A stretch of 64,000 nucleotides of DNA. It comes from Neelides folsomi (lineage: Eukaryota; Arthropoda; Collembola; Neelipleona; Neelidae). Location: positions 1-64,000 of the forward strand of contig JAQGBZ010000008.1 in assembly GCA_034687125.1 (NCBI GenBank), given 5' to 3'. Below the pieces are notes generated by a model. That model saw only the letters and a program-made list of their open reading frames with translations. It made no database searches and had not been told where the DNA came from. The position numbers and the translations under genes were made by a program. Of this stretch, positions 20,221 through 35,200 are shown piece after piece; within the stretch, counting starts at the first letter, position 1; every line of letters starts with the position of its first letter.

Positions 20221-23200
20221 TCAAATGTACAACGGTGTCTCTTGACCAGTCAAGAGCCTGAACATTGATGTCGGCATTGTTTTCATGTTAATCTGAAAAG
20301 AAAAAAATATTTACAGCCAAACAAATAAAATTATTACAGCTATTTAAATAAAATTTCAAATAAAATAATTTTAGTAAAATGATCATCCTTTAAATGCAGT
20401 TATTATTTTAATTTACAATTTTATACATGGATGGACTTATAAAAATGGTGATTTAAATGTAAATGATTGATTTAATAGAGTTGTCCACAAACCTCTCCCA
20501 CAGAAGTCGCCAAGAGATTTACGATCTTTTCATGAGGGACGGCAACAACAGATTGATTATTGATCTCAATGATTCGATGTCCAACTCTGACGCCTCCTCG
20601 TTCCGCAATCCCACCCCGAAGGAGGCTACAAATCTGCCAAAAAAGAAAAAAAAACTTTAACTTCTCCTCTCCTCCTCTCACCCACATTCTCCTTATCTCC
20701 CACTCACGACTCCATTTTGTACGCTGAATCCAAGCTGGTACTTTGTGTCCGGCCTTTTTATCTTCACCTCCACGACAGGTGGACAGGGAACGACGGTGAG
20801 TTTGACCACAGTTTGAGTCTTCGTATTCTGCCCACGAAAAAAGAATATCAAACATCGGCCCATTTCAATTATTCCCAACCCCACTCAGTATGGTCGACCC
20901 ACGACGGGGAAAAGGAAAGTTAAAGAAAAGTCTCCGTCGTTTAGAATTTCAAAACCCCACCTACCAGGCCCAGGTGAAATGGGCGAAAAAAACATTTTAT
21001 TTCTCCTCCATTCAACCTTTTCACCCTTCTCACATAGAATGAAAAATAGCAATGGCAATGTCCAGACTATGGACAACCAAAAGAAATTCCCCCTTCACGT
21101 TCAAATGGATTTGAAATTCAATCATTTGGCCTGCCAACACCTTCAAACATGTCATTTCCATGAAAAACCTATTTGTGGTGGCAGAGGGATCCTCACCGTT
21201 CCCTTAATGAGCATCACTAAAAGTGTTTAAAAGTGAAGCTAAAGAAACTGAAACTTCCTGTCGTTTTCCCTCTTCCCTTAATGAAATGAGCAGAGGGAGA
21301 ATTGGAATTGTCTCTTTCATTCCCTTCCCTGATTACATAAAAGTTCTTCTAATGTGTGTTCACACACTTCAATGTTACTCAAACTCCCAGACTTGCCCAA
21401 AACAAATGGGAAATTAAATTAACTCCACAACCTCCCTTTCCAACTGCACTTACTTTAACTATAGTAGATTCTTTTATTCTTTCATTTATGCTCAATATTC
21501 ATAAAATAAAAGTTAAAAGTTAAAGTAAAATAAATATGATACATTTTCCTCATTCATTAATTTTAGTATAAAAAATGCTTAGAAGCTGCAAAGGATTAAA
21601 AACAAAATCTCATTTTTCCATTCATCAACTTCCAAAATGTTCGCCATGGGACCAATTATTCTTAAAGAGTCACCAAGAAGAGTTAAAACTCCCTTGGTCT
21701 CCTCAACAAACGAATTTAATGAAAAAAACTGGATTTAAAACTGGCGTAAGAACCGGCTTTTGTTAGATTTATCTCATTGGATCCTCACCTTAATATAATT
21801 TTGGCACGTGGAGAGGGGTAAACCGACGAGGGACACTCCATTGATGGCAATGATTTGATCTCCAATGTTGAGTTGGCCGCATCGAGCTGCCGCACCCGCC
21901 GGGGCCAAATTCGCAATCACAACAGTTGGCAACATGCTTCCCCACCCGGATTCCACAATGACGACACCGAGGATTTCTCCCTTCGTCTTCGGCACCACGA
22001 CCTGAAAAAACCATAAAGGAAGGATTAGGAGGTGTAAGTGGAAAATAATAAAAGGAGATGGGGGAGAGATGGACAAAGGGAAAGATAATTTGGGCCTGGA
22101 GAAAAGGGATTTCTTCTCAAGGTCTCCCCCCTTTATGGTCAGTGGGGGGAATGAAAAGAGAGATAATAATGGGGAGCGGATCACCAGGGATCCTTTTCAT
22201 TCCAACCCTCATATTTTCACTCCTAGAGAAAGAAATCAACTTCATCCGCACGAAACAACGAGTTTATAAATCTCCTTCAAATGCCCATTGTCCCTTTCAT
22301 ATGAACTCAAATATTTATTTCCCTCTTTTCTCATTCTTAGAGAAAATAATATATATTTTTTAAGTTAATAAAATTAAGTTAGAAAAAGGGGAAAATTCAT
22401 TATTGTAATAAATTTAGCCTTTATAACCATTTTATAGTGCAATGAGAATTTATTACTTATTAAAAATTAATAAAATAAAGAAAAGGTTTGGTAAATAAAT
22501 TAATTTTACCTCTTTTTGAAGTTCTTTCTTGGCAAACATTTGAAGTTCGTCTCCAAATATTTCTTGCGAATTGAGAACTTCTTGGTAGTCCATTTCCCTT
22601 ACAAAGCTATGATCCTCGATCCCATTTGCCTTTAGGAATTCCATATAAGCGACTTGAAAAGCTTGGCCAATTGACTGAGCAATGTATTGAGCCTCGTCGC
22701 TCTCGAACACGTGGCAAATCATCTTGGGTGGACGGGCAATCTTTGACTCATCCACGCTGTCCGTTGGAACAGGTCGTCGACGAGCCATTAAAACGACCAA
22801 ATCTCCAATGTCAGCTATGTAAGAAATCGTTCGAAGCGCGTGGTCCATCATGATCTCCTATAAATTTTATTACGGTCATGGTCATGTTTTCATCATGTTT
22901 TTAAAATTATGTAAGTAGTCCTATAAATCTTTAGATAGATATTGTGGAAAGAATTTCTACTTCTAAAAAAAGAGTATTTCTAAATATCAATTTAATAAAA
23001 AATAAATAAGTGATATTTAATATAAAAAATCATAAATTCTTTACTTTGAGATCCGTATTGAGCACCATAATCTTCTCAGTTGATATGAAAAGGTCGACTT
23101 CCGTACTTGGTTGAGTTTCGCCTTCCGGAGCCTATGGAACATTTAACAAACTCTGACTTCATTATGCTCCGGAGCAGGAGTTTTAATAAGCTTTTTCCAA

Positions 23201-26200
23201 ACTCGTAACATCCAACTAATAACTCTTGATGGAATTCCTGGGTGTGGAGCGTATGTATAAAAGGTCTCTTCAAGAGAGTGTCTTTAGGAACATAATTGAA
23301 TTTCGATATCCTTTTTATCTCCTCCCTCCTTTCGCCTCACATTAAAGAAAAGCAAACGAGTGTTTCTCTCCCGTATTATTGAGTTAGTAGAGATTCTGGT
23401 TATATAGTTAGGTATAATAAATGAAACGACATTTCTCCCTTCCTCTCCTCCTTCCCATTCTGAGAGAGTCAAGCAAGGAAGTGACATAAAGGAAGTTACC
23501 GGGAAGCTTCTTATACAACGCAAATGAAAGATAAACTCTACTTTGAGAAGAAAAAATATAATAATTTGGGTTAATCTCAATTACCACCTTAAATTAACTT
23601 TAAGCTTAAAACGAGGAAAATACATTTAAGGTTAGAAAAATCCATCAATTGGCATCAAACGCAAAAATGGTAATTAAATGAACTAATGGCCAATTCATTT
23701 TCACACATTTCCTTCGCAGTTATTATTCGAAATTTGTGTACAGGGTTATTTGTGTGCTGCTTGTGTTTATTTTGATTTATGTATTCTGTTCATGCTTAAT
23801 CGAGAACCAAATTTGTATTTTCTCTCTTAAAGCTTAACCCTTCATCTTTGGATTGCGTGGGAGGATTGAATTTAACTAAGGGAATTCCTTACCAGCGACT
23901 GAGGATCGAAATCAGCGCCAACGAACAGCGAAGGCAATGCAGGAATGTTAACCAACGAACGCAGCAATAAAGAGGGACAGAAGAGAAATCATAAGAGACG
24001 GAAAGAGAGGAATCACCCAACTCTTTTCACACTTTCTCTCTCATGCTTGTAATTAATATAATTACATAGATAAAATAAATATAATTCTTTTATTTCTATT
24101 TGTTTCAAAATCGATTAGCTGATATCAATTCCCACTTGCTACAATCTATTATATTATATTTAATAAATATCATATTCTCGGAATTTTTAATTTATGTACA
24201 ATCATATTTACAATAATTTTTTCGTTACTTCTAATTTTTGTAAATTTTATTTTATATAATATTCAATGGACTAATTTGCTTATCTGTAGTAATGTAACTG
24301 ATACATAATAAAAAATTCTTTTCCTTTCTGTTCTATCCCCATTTGTAAAATTGGAGAATCGCGGTGCGGTCATACGAGCTTACAATAGAAAAGCATTGAA
24401 AGTAAATGAGAAAGTCGGAGGAGTCACGTTTTTGAGCATTCAAAAATCCTAATGATCTTTCAATCAAAATCGACTAAAGAACATAATACTATGCATAAAG
24501 AACAAAAAGACTATGATTGATTTTGAGAATTGCAATTGAACTGAAGTTGAAAAAAACATGCATTTGGATTTTGGATCTTCCTCATTAAATCCGTTATGAT
24601 TTATAAAAAAATCTTTTTTGTATTTTATTGAACCTTCAGTTTCGCGACGGCTTCTTCGACCATAGCATTCTTCGGTCTTTTCCTTCTCCTCCTCCCAGCC
24701 CCAACTTCCTCCTCCACTTCCAGAGACCCGACAAATCTCAATCGGAACATGGTGCCCGGGAGTGCACTTCCACATGGCGGGCTCATGTGGGGTAACCCCT
24801 CCACAGGAGTCCTCCGGACAGGAGAAGTTCCCACGAGCGGCGATGAGGACGACGTTGTCGAGGACTTTCGTCTCTCCCTTGCCCCCTCCTCCTCCTCGAC
24901 ATCCGGCTCAGGGCGAGGACGAAAGGGATTTCTCTGCCCACGCTCAAAGAAAGTAGCGGTTTCTCCTTCAAGGAGACTCTCGCCCTCGCTGTCGTCCTCG
25001 TTTGGATAGATGAGGAAGTCTTGGATTCCCAGTTTGCCCTCAACCACTTGAGCCTCCGGCTCAACACATTCAACCTCCTCTCCTTCCTCGCTGACCTGAG
25101 CCTGCATTTGTAAGATAAGATGAGCCAGTGTGGAGAGTTAAAGCTAATCTGGGGAAGTGGGAGGTTCGAAATGGATGGGAGAGCCAGCTCCAATCAATCA
25201 GAACTTTCCCCGCAAACATGTCCAACTCCCTTGCACAACAAATAAATCTCGGCTTTCTTTTTCTACAAACTTATCCGATTCCCTTCATTACCTATACATG
25301 TGGTGGGATATTTATAAATTATAGCCTGTATAAAATACAGGGCAAAGAACCAACAAATAAACCAAACAATAAGAATCTTAGGTCAAGAATACTCATAAAT
25401 AAAATATTATTAATAAAATATCTTTGCCCTTACTATTGTATTTAAAAAATTCATCGTGATAAAATAACTTGTGTAAATAATCTAAACCCACCACAATAAA
25501 TCTATAAATCTAACAATTATGATTGATCAAGAAATCCCAAAAAGATTCATTTAAGGCTTTAAAACGAGAATCTGATACGAAATGAAAAGGAACTTTCCCC
25601 TTTTATTCATTCTCATATAAATCCCCTCAACTAATGACATTGAAAGCGAAAATGTGAAAAAAGTAAGAAACGGAGGGATTTAAAAAAGGATTTTCTCAAT
25701 TTGGGCCACATGAAAGGAACCATTAGTTGTGTAGTCTACTCAGGCACGAGTGCGGACGGAAGTGAGCGCAGAGAAAATCATTTTAGATATCAAATCACTT
25801 TTGGGAGAAAGAGGGGAAAATACAACTAAAATGGGCCGCATCCAATTCAATCCCCTCGAAAAATTGAGAAGAAGAAGCGGAAATTCAATGTTGTAATTCG
25901 ATTTCATCAAGGGGCTCATACTACTCACCCCAGATCCAATAACCAACATCGAAAAGGAAGCTGAGGAATATGTGCAGTTAACTTCCACCAACTTCCTCAT
26001 TTCCCTACCCAAGTCGCGAAAATTGAAAGAGCTTATGGAAAGTAAGTATAACTTCATTTCTCCCTTCACAAATTTTATTACCTTTCTTTTTTACCTTTAA
26101 TGCAAATTTTGGGCTTTTATCATAAATAAACAGGAAATCCGGATAAAACTTCCCTGAATAATTTTATTTACTCTATGAACCCCATTTGAACCCCAGCTCT

Positions 26201-29200
26201 AAATACTTTACTTGCTTTAGCTAAACTTTAACATTGAAAGAATAAATAAAAATCTTCAATCTCATAACATATAACAAAATAAGAATTTAAGAAAAATACT
26301 TTGTAAAGTAATTTCAGTTCTAAATTATATTAAGAAAACTTGAGATATTCTCTTCTATCCCATCTTAACCTTTCCAAAGAGTTAAAGCTAAGAAGTGGTG
26401 AAATAAAAGAAATAAAACTTTTCCTATGCCCTGAGGAAATATCTAAAAAATTCTAGCTCAAATCTGTTCCTTATGTTCAAATGAATCTGTGTAAGAAATC
26501 TCTATACCGCTCCCACATTGACTCCCTCCCAATACTAATACAGTAATACATAATAATGCAGAGGGTAGTAATACAAAGGGAGGAAAGTAGGCAAAAGCCC
26601 TGCTATAACCATTGAGTGGATTCATCCCGAGTTTTCTTCCCCTTGTTTTACGATCTCTCACACTCTCACTTTTGATGAGGATAAATTGAGAAGGAGTTTT
26701 CCTCCGTTCCACCGTCGGAAGCCAAGTTTCCAATATGACTTCGTCTCCGGAAGTCCCAAGAGGTCCCCATTACCCAACTCTCCTCCTTCAAGGTAAAGTT
26801 TGAAGAAAAATGGAGGAGTAATTTAGGAGATGTCCTCCGCCCAACAACCACCTTAACAACTCTCCAAAAACTTTGTCTTCAAAGGAAATGATGGAGCAGG
26901 TCTTCACCGCTCATTTTTACTACCTGCTTATTATCAATGAGGATCAAGCCATGTATTATATTTATCAAGTCCTATATATCCATACTGCAGTATGTATTTA
27001 TATGCCCCGTAATCCCTCACTCACTCAGTCAACCTCCGATGATTAAAGTTAATAACTCTCCCAACTCCACCGCGAGACCTCGAGGTGGGGAAAAGTTGGG
27101 AAATGTGAGAGGACCCAATAAGTTATATATGAATCATCCCAAGGAGAGTGGGGAAGTGAAAGGGAAACCATTATGATGAGCGAGACATGGAGAGAAGCTC
27201 AACATCATCCCGGATTCACTTTCACTCTCTAAATCCTATTCATTTCAAATATTGACACGCGAATTGAAAAAGGAAATAGAATCTGGTAAAAATTATAACA
27301 TTCCTTTTCTCAAAGGCTTAAAATTGACAATAACCGGGAAATCCAATTTGTTCATTAATTCTTATTTACTATCAACTTTTCAAATACATTTCTCGTTCCA
27401 TGAGCTAAAACCGTCTTTACATTTCGATTTATATATACAAACAAATTTCCCACACCAATCTTTACGTTTCGCACATGTGGTAATCAATGAGTTTGCATAT
27501 GCTCCGTCTCTCTCATCGATTCATCATATGACATCATTTGAATATTAAATGTTGATTTGTTAAGAAGCAAAACTTAAACATTCCACAGGAACAAATCACG
27601 AGTGCCATTTTCAACACTTTCACTCTTTTAATTAAACGGAAAAGTTTTTCTTTTAATTTCCCATTCAATCGACAATCAACAGCACAAACATTTACACATT
27701 TTACAACGAATACAACGAGTTAATTAGTTAATGTATTTATTAGTTCATGCAACGAACCATGAAGCGTGTAAAGAAATGAAAGAAGCATTGGACGTGAAAA
27801 AATTAAATGGATGAACAGCGCGCACAAGAAGCTCCCCTTTCCATGTCTTTCATATATAGTAACTGTTGAAAGATTTAAAGTCTGGCTACAAGTGGAAAAG
27901 AATTCCTAAACCTATTTCAATTAAATGTTGCCTCCCTGGCGAAGTTGAAAAAAGAAGGGGGAGAAAAAAGGGAAAGTACCTTAATTCTCGAAACAGCTTC
28001 TTCAGCCTGCATCATCCGGGTCGCTTTGGTCGGTTGGCCTTCGCAAACTAATTGAGTGGATCCCAAGTACCGGGCTCGGAACAAAACTCCTTCGATGAGA
28101 ACTGAAGGATTGTTCATCAAATCTGGAAAAAGAAATCAACGAACCATGAAAATCTCCCCTACCACCAAATTCCACCAAATTCTACTACGAGAACTTTTCA
28201 AAAAATATTAAAATTTTTAATTAATTGGATATTTACATAAAAGACTAATTGTAAGTAACTTACTATAAATACTAAACAATCTATTGATTAGAAGAATAAT
28301 AATTAAATTAATTCTTATTTATAAGTTAAGAATTGGAATTCTTGTCAGTGGATTATTTGATACAAAGTAGTTATAACGTACACAGTTAGTTTAATTTGAA
28401 TTAAGCTTGCATAGTTCTAAATTCAACTAAAAGTACTCAAGTATGAATTTATACAATTTATTCAAAATCTGACTGTTCAAGTTTGTAGAAAAGTTAAAAT
28501 ACAATGAATAAAAAGCAAAGCTTCTCGAAGCTTTAATCCTTTTTAGTTCAAAGCAAATATTGTCTGCTGATGCTCAATAGTCAAAGTAACTTTTTTAAAT
28601 GAATCATAATATTGTTTATGAATAGAAGTGGTTGAAAAGATATATAAATAAACGACCTATTCATATTTTTCAGTATATTAAAGTTAACACAAATAACATA
28701 AGATTATTTTTAAAATATGGTTGAGAGAAGTTTTGTAAGTTCCTATACATAAACGCGTATATCCATTGTCCCTAATTAGAGTCCCAAAGAAAATATATGA
28801 ATATGTGATTGCACTCACCAGCAGGAGCAGAAGTTCATTTCAAGTGAAATGAAGATGAAAGCAGAGTTGGAAGACCGAGTGTAGAAAAGAAAGAAAATGA
28901 AGAAGACGTGAAAATTGTGAAAATGATCCCAGCGTGAGGAGGGAGATAAAAATAGAGAGAAAAAACAATTATTTCAAAAAACTCCTTTTTAACTCCTTTC
29001 CTCGCTCTCCATTCAAAACCTCCCAACCTCTTTTGGAGAGGAACTTTACCTCTCTAAAATGAAATTTAATTGCGGAAAAATCCATCTTCCTCCATAACTT
29101 TCTTCAAAATGGGAAAAAGTAGAGTAAAATAGGAAAACTATTTTTGATGCCAACCATGTATGAAATATGATAAATGGTCTTACAAAATTTATATTGTTGA

Positions 29201-32200
29201 TACGTATCATATTTATGGAAGTGTGAATAGTATTTTTAATGCTTTATTTTTTTAAATAATGATAACTTGAATGTCTTATTAGTATTACTAACTTCGCTTT
29301 TATACAAGTTTGAAAAATATCCGCTCCGTTGAATCAAAAACCGATTCCGAGGAGGGGTAAAAAATGAAATATAAAATGAAATCAATTTCTCCTATTCTTG
29401 TTAATGCAGCCTACAGCTCTAGAATCTCAAAGACTTTCGGAATAAAAGGGATATGATAATACACGTGGAATAGGGAAGTTGAAAATGGCCCAGCTTCCCT
29501 CAAGGTTTTCCCGAATGTTCCCATATTTACCAGGCTCTTTGGATCTCCCCAGAAGGATTTATCTCGACGAGTCAAAACGTGAGGATAAAGACAATGTCTT
29601 TTCATGTATACCAGTCGAGGGGGTGGGAAAACAGAGAGTTAGGAAGTAAGCAAATAAACTTTCAAATCTTCAACGAAATATAAATTTATTGACTTAAGAA
29701 TATCCGCTAAGAGTTTCGACTATTTGGGAACTTTTAAGGAAGCTTTCCCTCCCAATCTCCCCTCCACCTTTCATTTTTCCACTTCAAAAAAGGATAGCGT
29801 CGGCTCCAGCTTCACTCAATGTGTATCAAGGGGCTTTGTCAACTCACCAACTTGTAAACCACTTCCACTCACAATGAATGAGAAAAACTTTGACGACTTC
29901 AAGGAGGGAAAAGCCCTTCAAAAAACACACTAATTTCTCTTCAAAATCTCGGACTTTCGCTCTTGAGCCATTGAAAATTAGCTTCCATGAACCTCTCAAA
30001 CGCTCTCAGTACAAGACACGAATTACAAAAATCGAACTCTTGGTGTTAAACGTAGGAAATATAAGAAAGTGAAAGTTTACGCAATATAATTATGAAAATA
30101 AAAAAATGGAAGCTGTATCAATACTAGAAAGATGTATCTCTCATTAGATCAATAATTCAATAAAAACTCGGCAACTCACATAGTTTTTCTAATCCTTACA
30201 ATATAACAACAAGAACTCTTATAATGGAATAATCGTTAAGATGCTCGTATTAAAAGTTGAAAAATGGATGTAAAACGATTAAGTAACGGTAATAAATAAG
30301 ATAATTCGATTTCCTCAATGGCTTACGTGAAAGGGAAGGCCCGGGGTCGGCGGAATGGAAGAAAGGAGTAAAAGAACCGGATGAACCTCTCTCGAGGTGT
30401 CTTATGCATATCACGAAAATCTCAGGGTATATGAATCTGTAAATGTTCTAATCCTCCGCCTCTCCCGGACCTCTGCGCAGATTCTTGTTCCAAATCCACG
30501 GCCCTCAAATTAACCAATGAATCATTTTATTCCACTCGGGCAAAAGGCTCAGGTGGAGGAGCTACAAGTTAACATCTTAGCACATTACTCTACTTCATTA
30601 AAGAGAAATTTCCTCCTCGATGACAAACTGCTTTCGTATTTAACTTTCCCTTCATAAATCTCCTCTCTCTGTTGGAAAGTGCAAAAAAGTTGTTCAGGAG
30701 CGATTAAAATGAAAATCCATTAGTCCGACCCCATACGATGAGCAAAAATGAAAGATTAAAATGTTAAATTCATGTTTTCATCCCCATGTTTTCATAAAAA
30801 TCAATGACGCATTATTTAAGTGCACTTTTTAAACCATAAAACTTGATATAAACCATCAACACCCCTCAGGCCATACTTTTCAACACCTGCAATAATTTTA
30901 AGTGTAAAATAATGTATTTATGTACTAGCGTTTAAAAGTTCATTGGTCTACTAATGTCAATAAATTGACTTATTTTTGCGCAAAGCTAACTCTAACATAC
31001 TTATTTAAATATTTATGTATGTACAAACGTAACGTGTCCAGGGTTAGTTGAAAGCATGCAGAAGTAATAAGAGAGCTTATGTATGAATTACTTATTTACA
31101 TCCATAATAAAGTAATTAAACTGCCCAGTCCGTTAGATGGTTTAGTGGAAGTTAATGAAGCATTGAATGCAGTATGAAGTTTCTATCAAAGAATCGTGCA
31201 CAAAGTAAATTAAATAGAGGAATTTTACAATGGAGAGAAAGCTCGGAGGAAAATGAAGTAAATGGAATTTATATATTTACATATTTAAATAGAGAGAAGA
31301 GAGCGTTGAAGCAACATTCGTCGCTCTCCGCTCTCCAGGTAGAGAGAGATGTTTTTAGATATAAAGAAAGTATTGGTTTACCTTCTTTGCTCCGCTTCTT
31401 CTTTGCCCCGTCCTTCTCCTAGAAAGAAGAAAAAACGTATAATTTATAGGGCACGAGGAAGGTGGCGAGGCGATTCCTCCTTGTCATACTCCGACTCGGA
31501 TTTACGGCCGCCTGAACCCCCAAACACACTTCCCATACATTATTAATTGAGAAATACATTAAATCTCAGGAAGTCCTTTCCCGCACAACAGACTCAAGAT
31601 TAACTTTTTCTCCCACTACTCCTTTTATGACAGGAACGAGATTTCTACTTTGGAATTCCTTTTTTACCTTCTCCAATCCTCACAGGATTTCTTTCAACGC
31701 TCTCCATTCCCACAAACATGAATAAACATCCGACGTTCTACTTACACAGTCAAAATGTGCAAGAACTGTATTAAAAATCCCATGTATTATTTACAAACAA
31801 TGGCATTAAATGTAAAAAATGCAGTTCATGTACTCTTAGAAAAATTAGACAATAAACATGAAACCATTTAGATAATATTAAAATAACGTTAAAAGTTTAA
31901 TTTTTTATTTATAGATTAATTGCAAGCTTAAGCTTATTATTTTTAATACAGTTTGATAATTAAAGTGAAAGATAGAGAAAATGGAAGAATTTTAGTTTTT
32001 GATGGGGAAATGTGTTATCGTGCTACATATTTATAAAGTTAATAGTAGAAAGAAGAGAAAGCAAAAGGGACCTTTTTCGGCTTAGCAGAAGCTGAGAGTG
32101 GAAGCGATGGGTCTTTGAATGAAGGCAGTGGCTTCGTGGCTGTCGGATTGCACCCAACACTCCCTCCAACACCACGCGGGTCTCGGATGGAACTTGACTT

Positions 32201-35200
32201 GAGGGATCCTTTGCCCAACGAGGGCAGAAGCGAACTCCGACACTTCAGCTTCTTCCACTCCTGACACGAATTGACGTTAGTTCTCACATCAAACACGCAC
32301 TTCAAACTCAATCACACAAACTTCATCCATATCCCAACTCTTATTCATAATAATATCCATATTTCAAAATTATGTTATTGTAATAAAGTACAGTATCCTT
32401 AAGCGGAATACATAAAACATGGATCGAAATGACCACGTATAGGACAGTTACAGATAAATAAGTTTTGGCTAAATGTAATCAAACAAAAAAGAAGTACACA
32501 AAAAGTAAAACATATTTTAAACGAGACAGGTGGGGTAGGAAATGCCACAACAAAAGGAAACAAATGAGGAAGTTGATAATAAAAGTGAGTAAAAATTGAA
32601 CTTTTCCCCACACCAATTCATGGCGGCGGTGGAGATCGGTGGGCCGAATGGGAGGCGACAAAAGAGTTTCCCCCATTCTCCTTTATTTTCTCTCCTTTCT
32701 CCGTAATGGGGGGTGCAACAATGAAGGGCGAAGAGCCATAAAACACAATGGGACATTCCGCTCAATTCCACTTCCTCACAAGGACCGTTTACAGAAGAGG
32801 AAAGAGGTCATTTGAAGGGAAAGAAATCCAACTTCGTTTTTCTATCTTGGAATGTCTTCAATTGGGAAAGTATTTGCCTCAGCATAAAATCCACAATAAA
32901 ATCAATCTCATTAAACCCTCCCGCCCACCTTTGCATCTCAATTCCTTACATTTCTATCCAAATTCTCAGCGCCACACTTTCTCTCCCAACTCTCAATGAC
33001 CAGTAGACTGAAGTAAGGGGAATGAACACTCAAAAGAAGTTTAAAATAAAAAAAGTAATTCTAGCTCCTAATGTCTTCCAAGTAGAACAAAGCGAGGAAA
33101 TAAAAGTCTATTATCCCAAGGCCGCACTACTATTTGGAAATCTTTCTATTACGGATTTCTAATCCTACTCGAGCCTTTGTATTAAAATGTTAAATATTTA
33201 CAACAAAAGACAGATTCCTTTGAGGTTTGCGAATCTGGGCATATTGACTCTCCGAGCTCAAATTAAGACTCCTAATGAGAGGACGGCCATTGCGTAAAAG
33301 GGCGGATAAAAAGAAGAAATTCCTCAATTCCGCAGAAAGCTGAACCAATTTCCTCCCCATTACATCCCTAGACATGGATCGATCCCTCTCTAGAGACACA
33401 AAAGAGAGGAAAAACGGAGTTTTGAGTAATCATCATTATTAAACTCATCCCAGAATCCATTAATTAGAGTTCTCATCTCTCCTTCTGTCTCATATTGGCT
33501 CGCTCACACTATTCTATTAACCTTTCTTCATAAAAGATTTTTTAATTTCTTTTCATAAAATTTCAACAAATCAAAGCAAGATCGGAATGGAAAATTCGAT
33601 ACTGTGTTCCTAATTTTTCGTAATGTTGGATAATTTCATAAATTGAAACTTATACAAAAGATTCCCAAGATGGGAATGTCAAAATCTGCTAAAAATTTCA
33701 TAATAAAATGAAACATAGAGTAAATACAAGTATAATTTCGGTTTCGGTCTCATGCAAAGAAAGTATACATAAATCATATTAGTTATTGTCAATCATTGAG
33801 TAGAATAATACTAGGAAAATTTTAACGTTTCGCATGAAGATAAGTGAGATTTAAAAGTAGAAGAATGGAAGATTTAAGAGAATGCCTTTTCCATATGAGC
33901 ATAATCGGATCGGAGAAGAAAGTAGTTAAAGGGAAAATTAGAGAAGAAGGGCGGAAATCCCCCCTTTGAATTCCATTCAAATTTGATAATGTCCTCAACG
34001 CGAGCTTCATTTGCTAAAAGCGCCGAGTAGATAATGACGTGTTTAATCAGCGGAATAATAGACTTAGCTCTCCCTAATCTTATAAAATTGGTTGAAACGA
34101 GGGATGGAATCTCACACATCCCTTTACATCATTCTATTCCTTGTTATTTTCAACTTGCGAAACTAAAGATGAAAGACAAATGCAATAGTAAAAATTGAAA
34201 GAGACATTTACATACTTCCAGAGTGAAAGTGAGTCGAAGAATGTAAGTAAATTGTATTATGTATAAAGGTCTTCTAACGAGAATTCTCCTCATTATTATT
34301 TCCTCCCCAATCGTCTCTTAATAAGGTAATGAAGAGGGACGAAGGAACGTCTTAATCTCTTTATGTTCACGTGAAAACTATTAAACTCTACTGTTCATTA
34401 AAGTTAAATATTCTCCCCAACCAAGCCCTAAGCCCCCACCTTCCCTGGCTCAATTATCAATAAAGATTTTGGGGAGTAAATATCAATTTATTTTTATGTC
34501 TCCCTCGGCCGAGATTCCTTAAGGCCGGGGAGAAGTGTGCAGATGCCGAGGATAATTATAAGTGTAAGTGTGAGGGTGAAATAAATTGTGAGGCACGGGA
34601 TTTGAGAGGGCGCAATGCATGGGTAATGGCTCCCATCCCTCTCCCTTCTCCCGACATGATGGCTCTCATTATACTTAATCCTCACTGTTATTATCTTCCT
34701 GACATCCAACAAACACATCTCATTTCTCTTCCCACCACTTCCCAGCCTCGGACAGTCATTTCCCCCGGAAACCCACAGAGACTCAGGGAAATGACAAGGC
34801 ATTGATTAAACCTCTTCCTTATTTATAAGGTGGAAATTAAGAGCCTCATTCGCTCTCGCACTATTCCTCAAAATCTATTCGTATTCCCATAAATGCCCCA
34901 TATTATATATTCCCGTTGACGAAATCTGCAAATTACACCTCATTAAACTACTAAAGTCCCATGTTACAAAGAAAGGCAAAAACCATTACTCATCTATTCT
35001 TTTAACTATTTTCAAGTTAAGTATCTGTCGTATAATAACGATCGTCGTAGTCGATAAATTGAAAAGTAATCACTGATTTAAAAATTCAAACCAAAATTCC
35101 TAAAGTGTAATTATTAAAATTTTACCTATGCTATATATGTATTTATTATTATGTAAATGTCACAATTAACAAGGTATAGAATTGTAGAATTACAATTACT

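Follow-up and report, generated by a model that had tools for sequence, protein, structure and literature searches.

We report that a Mint/X11/APBA gene of the collembolan Neelides folsomi (contig JAQGBZ010000008.1 of GCA_034687125.1) carries, inside the intron of approximately 4.8 kb that separates the two halves of its PTB domain, a candidate exon whose end resembles the start of a PTB domain. The window, i.e. the whole stretch of DNA that was analysed, covers positions 1 to 64,000 of this contig, and all coordinates refer to it. The candidate, here exon B (24634-25101, minus strand), was pointed out in an earlier note, and the observation of a second PTB-start-like exon in the PTB intron is confirmed by our sequence comparisons. 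We lean slightly towards B being a real Mint/X11 coding exon, probably an old duplicate of the PTB-start exon, which would be spliced to the first exon of the second PTB half in place of the canonical start and would change second partners, membrane contact or location of the protein. That the gene encodes its PTB domain in two forms, in which an alternative exon swaps the whole first strand and helix and adds an N-terminal arm and a basic loop, with the NPxY groove and the PDZ pair in common, is a more tentative proposal that we place somewhat short of an even chance.

Mint/X11 family adaptors are known binders of the Alzheimer precursor protein (APP), and Mint proteins connect APP, presynaptic release and PDZ partners. 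Judged by its domain matches, the minus-strand host gene is an animal Mint/X11/APBA gene. Specifically, the canonical PTB domain was spliced from E37 (31382-31418, a 37-nt exon ahead of the PTB start), C (27980-28122, the canonical PTB start exon), D (23045-23131, the first exon of the common second half) and F (22510-22857, the remainder of the domain), the last three being placed by PID and PDB matches. The spliced domain matches Pfam PID with 136.8 bits, and its closest solved structures in a PDB search are those of APBA1 (4dbb, 2.6e-58) and APBA2 (3suz, 7.8e-57). Downstream, the PDZ1 exon (21789-22001), an exon that completes PDZ1 and runs on into PDZ2 (20708-20827) and a PDZ2 exon (20493-20633) were placed by Pfam PDZ and 3suz, and the last coding exon (20221-20292), which ends in TPLYI followed by the stop, by 3suz. 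The joined PDZ region matches Pfam PDZ (7.8e-31) in two stretches, i.e. two PDZ domains, and APBA2 (3suz, 3.8e-85) over residues 4-181 of 181, through the final TPLYI. Upstream of E37 lies a phase-0 exon of 189 nt (32072-32260), the proposed splice partner of B, with a coding score of 24.9 vs 24.1 for its antisense; homology neither confirms this exon nor fixes its end. A very long coding-type open segment further upstream (53435-50823, minus strand; 339.7 bits) gave no Pfam match at 0.01 and is probably the disordered Mint N-terminus. Animal Mint/X11 proteins have a PTB domain, two PDZ domains, a conserved C-terminus and a divergent N-terminus, according to the part of PMC11405698 consulted. 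Elsewhere on the minus strand the window holds a C2H2 zinc-finger array (17490-17005; zf-H2C2_2, 7.6e-35) and an open frame (8581-7325), perhaps a sorting-nexin-like gene, with a weak PXA-domain match of 22.2 bits, which is under the Pfam cut-off of 27.

Exon B sits in the intron between C and D and has the coordinates, strand, length and phase that were claimed for it: it consists of 468 nt, i.e. 156 open codons, phase 0 to 0. The claims that E37 (31418-31382) and C (28122-27980) together make 180 nt, phase 0 to 0, and that exon D begins with APEGETQP, at 23131, were likewise correct, and the 180-nt and 468-nt sets are thus compatible in frame. Residues 1-112 of B are Glu/Ser/Pro-rich and the remaining 44 (24634-24765) form the PTB-like start, as defined by alignments and shuffle tests, with an Arg/Lys-rich loop, RRRRKRPK, between the first strand and the helix. 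An in-frame ATG (25105-25107) lies just 5' of B, with an in-frame TAA (25140-25138) ahead of it; at the other end, the frame reaches a TAA stop (24627-24625) if the donor is unused, and this stop is overlapped by an AATAAA (24624-24629). Structure prediction for B alone gave a mean pLDDT of 54.7 and a sole helix at residues 146-155, which was too poor for a fold search. A kinship of the first 112 residues with four upstream exons was rejected (84, 229, 354 and 239 of 500 shuffles were as good), as was the idea that B is a repeated or transposable element, since within the window B has no match longer than 23 nt besides itself.

Part of the evidence for our reading is the likeness between the end of B and the canonical PTB start. 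The two align over 43 columns with 13 identities, and the motifs FR-x-R-[YF]-x-GS and EEAV-x-[RK]-[IL]-K, which the earlier note had listed as common to both, are seen in the alignment. The 52-residue tail of B and 48 canonical residues reach a BLOSUM62 local score of 51, a value that none of the 20000 shuffles attained, and each finds the other as its top match when the 2110 stop-to-stop peptides of at least 20 residues in the window are compared. Whole B against 60 canonical residues also scores 51, equalled by 1 of 5000 shuffles; when all of B is compared with the window, however, three unrelated peptides reach similar values, namely 52 (on the plus strand), 50 and 49, so the whole-B score is unremarkable and only the tail alone exceeds chance. 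Against a piece of human APBA1, the score of whole B was equalled by 181 of 3000 shuffles. Moreover, the likeness stops at the splice junction. In a test of junction register over the last eight residues, covering the 3543 GT sites on both strands that are preceded by eight open codons, the suffix score of B is attained nowhere except at the canonical junction and at B itself.

At the DNA level we found no similarity between B and the canonical exon (score 26, with a mean of 21.6 and a maximum of 30 in 300 shuffles), and 6 of the 13 identical residues are encoded by different codons, a pattern that conservation of the protein would lead one to expect. The codon differences and the lack of DNA similarity fit either an old duplicate whose protein sequence has been maintained or a PTB fragment of independent origin. 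The tail of B was also compared with other PTB starts, those of GULP1, LDLRAP1 and NUMB being entered by hand. The scores were 52 for GULP1, 47 for LDLRAP1 (first 26 columns only), 42 for APBA2, 38 for NUMB and 37 for APBA1, with 0, 0, 0, 2 and 4 of 5000 shuffles, respectively, as good. Since the tail scores with the starts of APBA2, GULP1 and LDLRAP1, it is PTB-like in general, and as the hand-entered GULP1 start scores 52 vs 51 for the canonical start, B may have come from another PTB gene, besides the possibility of a tandem exon duplication.

That the window holds a single recognisable downstream PTB second half, as claimed, was borne out: other peptides of the window score at most 42 against it, where F reaches 379 and D 144, and no second copy was recognised. 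To function as a PTB start, B would therefore have to use D and F, and the idea that the intron hosts another, nested PTB gene was rejected, as no other second half was recognised in the window. The search of B with a PTB profile, which the earlier note had proposed, gave a divided answer. B alone has no PID match, and neither B alone nor its tail alone gave a match in Pfam and PDB searches; joined to D and F, B adds 15.2 bits (95.3 bits for D+F, 110.5 for B+D+F and 136.8 for the canonical E37+C+D+F). The PID E-value obtained with the true tail was bettered by none of 20 shuffled tails (20 used of 30 made). In a PDB search with the tail joined to D and F, the best stretch includes the first strand of B in three of the nine listed chains (4dbb, 3sv1 and 6itu) and begins later in the other six. 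No relative appeared when viral contigs were scanned with B, or when genome contigs, from a collection without animal genomes, were scanned with exon F.

The frame of B looks coding. With a codon score calculated as log-odds trained on the other open frames of the window, B obtains 62.1 bits, compared with 29.1 for F, 27.2 for PDZ1 and 13.1 for C, and between C and B no minus-strand segment passes 12 except those that overlap B. Random sequences with the first-order composition of B stay open in 34 of 4000 cases, and 3 of these 34 score as high as B; composition thus accounts for a large part of the codon signal. Nor is the score a proof of coding, because the antisense of the large N-terminal exon (53435-50823) is also called coding, with 75.5.

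Splice sites were scored with hand-made matrices. The putative donor of B (AAG|GTTCAA; GT at 24632-24633) matches the canonical donor in position and is weak: its score of -3.06 is the lowest of nine scored in the gene, the other eight ranging from -2.66 to 6.87, and 89 of the 236 GT sites of the intron score at least as high. The donor of the proposed upstream partner at 32072 (AAG|GTCCCT, -2.66) is almost as weak. Weak donors are common in regulated exons and likewise in dead ones. The claim that either exon set can be spliced to D agrees with the phases and the single recognisable second half, and the poor donor speaks against it; the fit of phases is itself weak evidence, because D, F and the PDZ exons PDZ1, PDZ2a and PDZ2b all have lengths in multiples of three and keep phase 0.

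The weak donor bears on the alternative that survives best, namely that B is a dead or dying duplicate, formerly an alternative PTB exon, whose donor has been lost. Such a history would also agree with the absence of remaining DNA similarity and with a PID score that is lower with B than with C, but it sits poorly with 156 codons that are still open, which few random sequences of this composition achieve, with the still high coding score and with the last eight residues kept at the junction, and we regard it as unlikely.

On its 5' side B has a putative phase-0 acceptor (AG at 25102-25103) with a fair score of 1.55, above the acceptors of D and F; 23 of the 299 AG sites of the intron, itself included, score at least as high. 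The top acceptor of these 299 (AG at 25149-25150, score 7.26) would start an exon at 25148, i.e. 47 nt upstream of the proposed start of B, and is out of the frame of B for a phase-0 upstream exon; it suits non-coding sequence ahead of the ATG at 25107. This acceptor, together with an ATG that follows an in-frame stop, suggests that a short isoform may have B as its first coding exon. B may either connect to coding exons further upstream, in mutual exclusion with E37 and C, or provide the coding start at ATG 25107. A CpG-island promoter at B was rejected (CpG ratio of 0.79 vs 0.80 for the window).

Phase 0 at both ends would equally allow B to be a cassette inserted between C and D, giving an insert of 156 residues in the loop after the first PTB helix; like the use of B as a first coding exon, this reading was not considered in the earlier note. 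The intron that holds B corresponds in place to that of Mint1 exon 6, and a similar insert in a PTB domain, of 33 nt, exists in NUMB Ex3 (from the part of PMC6778778 consulted). A cassette would, however, leave unexplained that B ends in a PTB start of its own, would yield a protein with two PTB starts and one second half, and would be 14 times longer than the known inserts; we find this reading rather improbable.

A still more doubtful reading is that B is an alternative last exon, in which C or another exon would be joined to B, translation would end at the stop at 24627-24625 and poly(A) would be added after the AATAAA, giving a Mint protein that lacks the PTB second half and the PDZ domains. 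It would make the weak donor unnecessary, and the AATAAA does overlap the stop, as the earlier note had said in proposing a truncated isoform without PDZ domains. The signal is of ordinary frequency for the intron, though: the 1502 nt from B to D contain four copies, the stop-overlapping one included, and the 11,501 nt further up the gene contain 13. The AATAAA at the stop is therefore weak evidence for a terminal exon, and it would remain unexplained why the PTB pattern was kept in a start that has no second half to join. Finally, that B is a GC-rich segment, coding or non-coding, whose end merely resembles a PTB start by chance would agree with its Glu/Arg-rich composition, with the whole-B scores of 49 to 52 against unrelated peptides and with the absence of a Pfam match for B alone, but is very unlikely in view of the junction test, the tail test and the PID E-value that no shuffled tail bettered.

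We return to the reading of B as an alternative PTB start, for which the interpretation of the earlier note, an alternative exon swapped in, is partly supported by the sequence; transcription of B, use of its donor, duplication as its origin and its function are what we infer from the evidence above. According to this model, B would have arisen by an old duplication of the PTB-start exon and would be joined to exon D through its donor at 24634, giving an alternative transcript with the PTB start of B instead of E37 and C. The resulting isoform would keep the second PTB half and both PDZ domains unchanged, and would gain a Glu/Ser/Pro-rich, probably disordered stretch of 112 residues and the basic loop RRRRKRPK.

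The NPxY groove of PTB domains is formed by the fifth strand and the last helix. Both are encoded downstream of the splice junction (D+F), i.e. in the common second half, and the groove would thus be the same in the B isoform. In vertebrate Mint1 (APBA1), exon 6 is optional and 33 nt long, and its skipping allows binding of Rab6 while APP binding is kept (from the part of PMC3667844 consulted). The proposal that a swapped first strand would change ligand choice is therefore doubtful: with the groove in the common half, and by analogy with exon 6, which alters Rab6 and not APP binding, an altered NPxY choice appears unlikely. Mint PTB domains have a further ligand, a peptide of TJAP1 that docks on the side facing away from the NPxY groove (from the part of PMC10820826 consulted). 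The Rab6 and TJAP1 cases suggest that exchanging the first strand, the helix and the loop would affect such second partners, or membrane contact or location by way of the RRRRKRPK loop, more readily than NPxY choice, and it is these changes that we would expect in the B isoform. If the model is true, one gene that exchanges the first part of its PTB domain would be a natural case in which the NPxY groove is uncoupled from the remainder of the domain, and would offer a test of what the first strand, the helix and the following loop contribute, e.g. to Rab6-like or membrane partners.

The closest known counterpart is Mint1 exon 6 (Mint1 826). As proposed for B, its use is optional, and it lies at the corresponding junction, where SRIK meets APEG; the published Mint1 exon 5/exon 7 primer AGCAGGATCAAGGCTCCTG (in the part of PMC3667844 consulted) reads in frame here as SRIK|AP, as in the host gene, and the 3suz alignment has extra residues at the exon 6 point. 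It differs in being an insert of 11 residues without a second PTB start. In the host gene, a search for a microexon of this kind gave no clear one (of 43 candidates with lengths of 24-48 nt, the best reached a local score of 19 with a 12-residue query). NUMB exon 3 (PTB-long/PTB-short) is likewise an alternative exon inside a PTB domain, which adds the partner MDM2, and unlike B it is a 33-nt insert, a chordate invention that does not replace the first strand (from the part of PMC6778778 consulted). The CCM2 isoforms offer a parallel in their alternative start-codon exons, which have their own promoters, exon 1A being derived from exon 1, and in alternative splicing that bears on PTB content; they differ in belonging to another gene, and the part of PMC6825194 consulted mentions no second version of the first PTB strand combined with a common half. 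A duplicated PTB-start exon is not described in the parts consulted of PMC11405698, on animal Mint/X11, and PMC2429963, on Drosophila X11L, and no Mint gene with a second PTB-start exon was found in the literature searched, which lies largely outside the subscription journals and includes parts of PMC3667844, PMC8291497 and PMC10820826. The known relatives are thus small inserts (Mint1 exon 6 and NUMB exon 3) and alternative starts (CCM2); if the model is true, the junction that holds Mint1 exon 6 in vertebrates would be used differently in another lineage.
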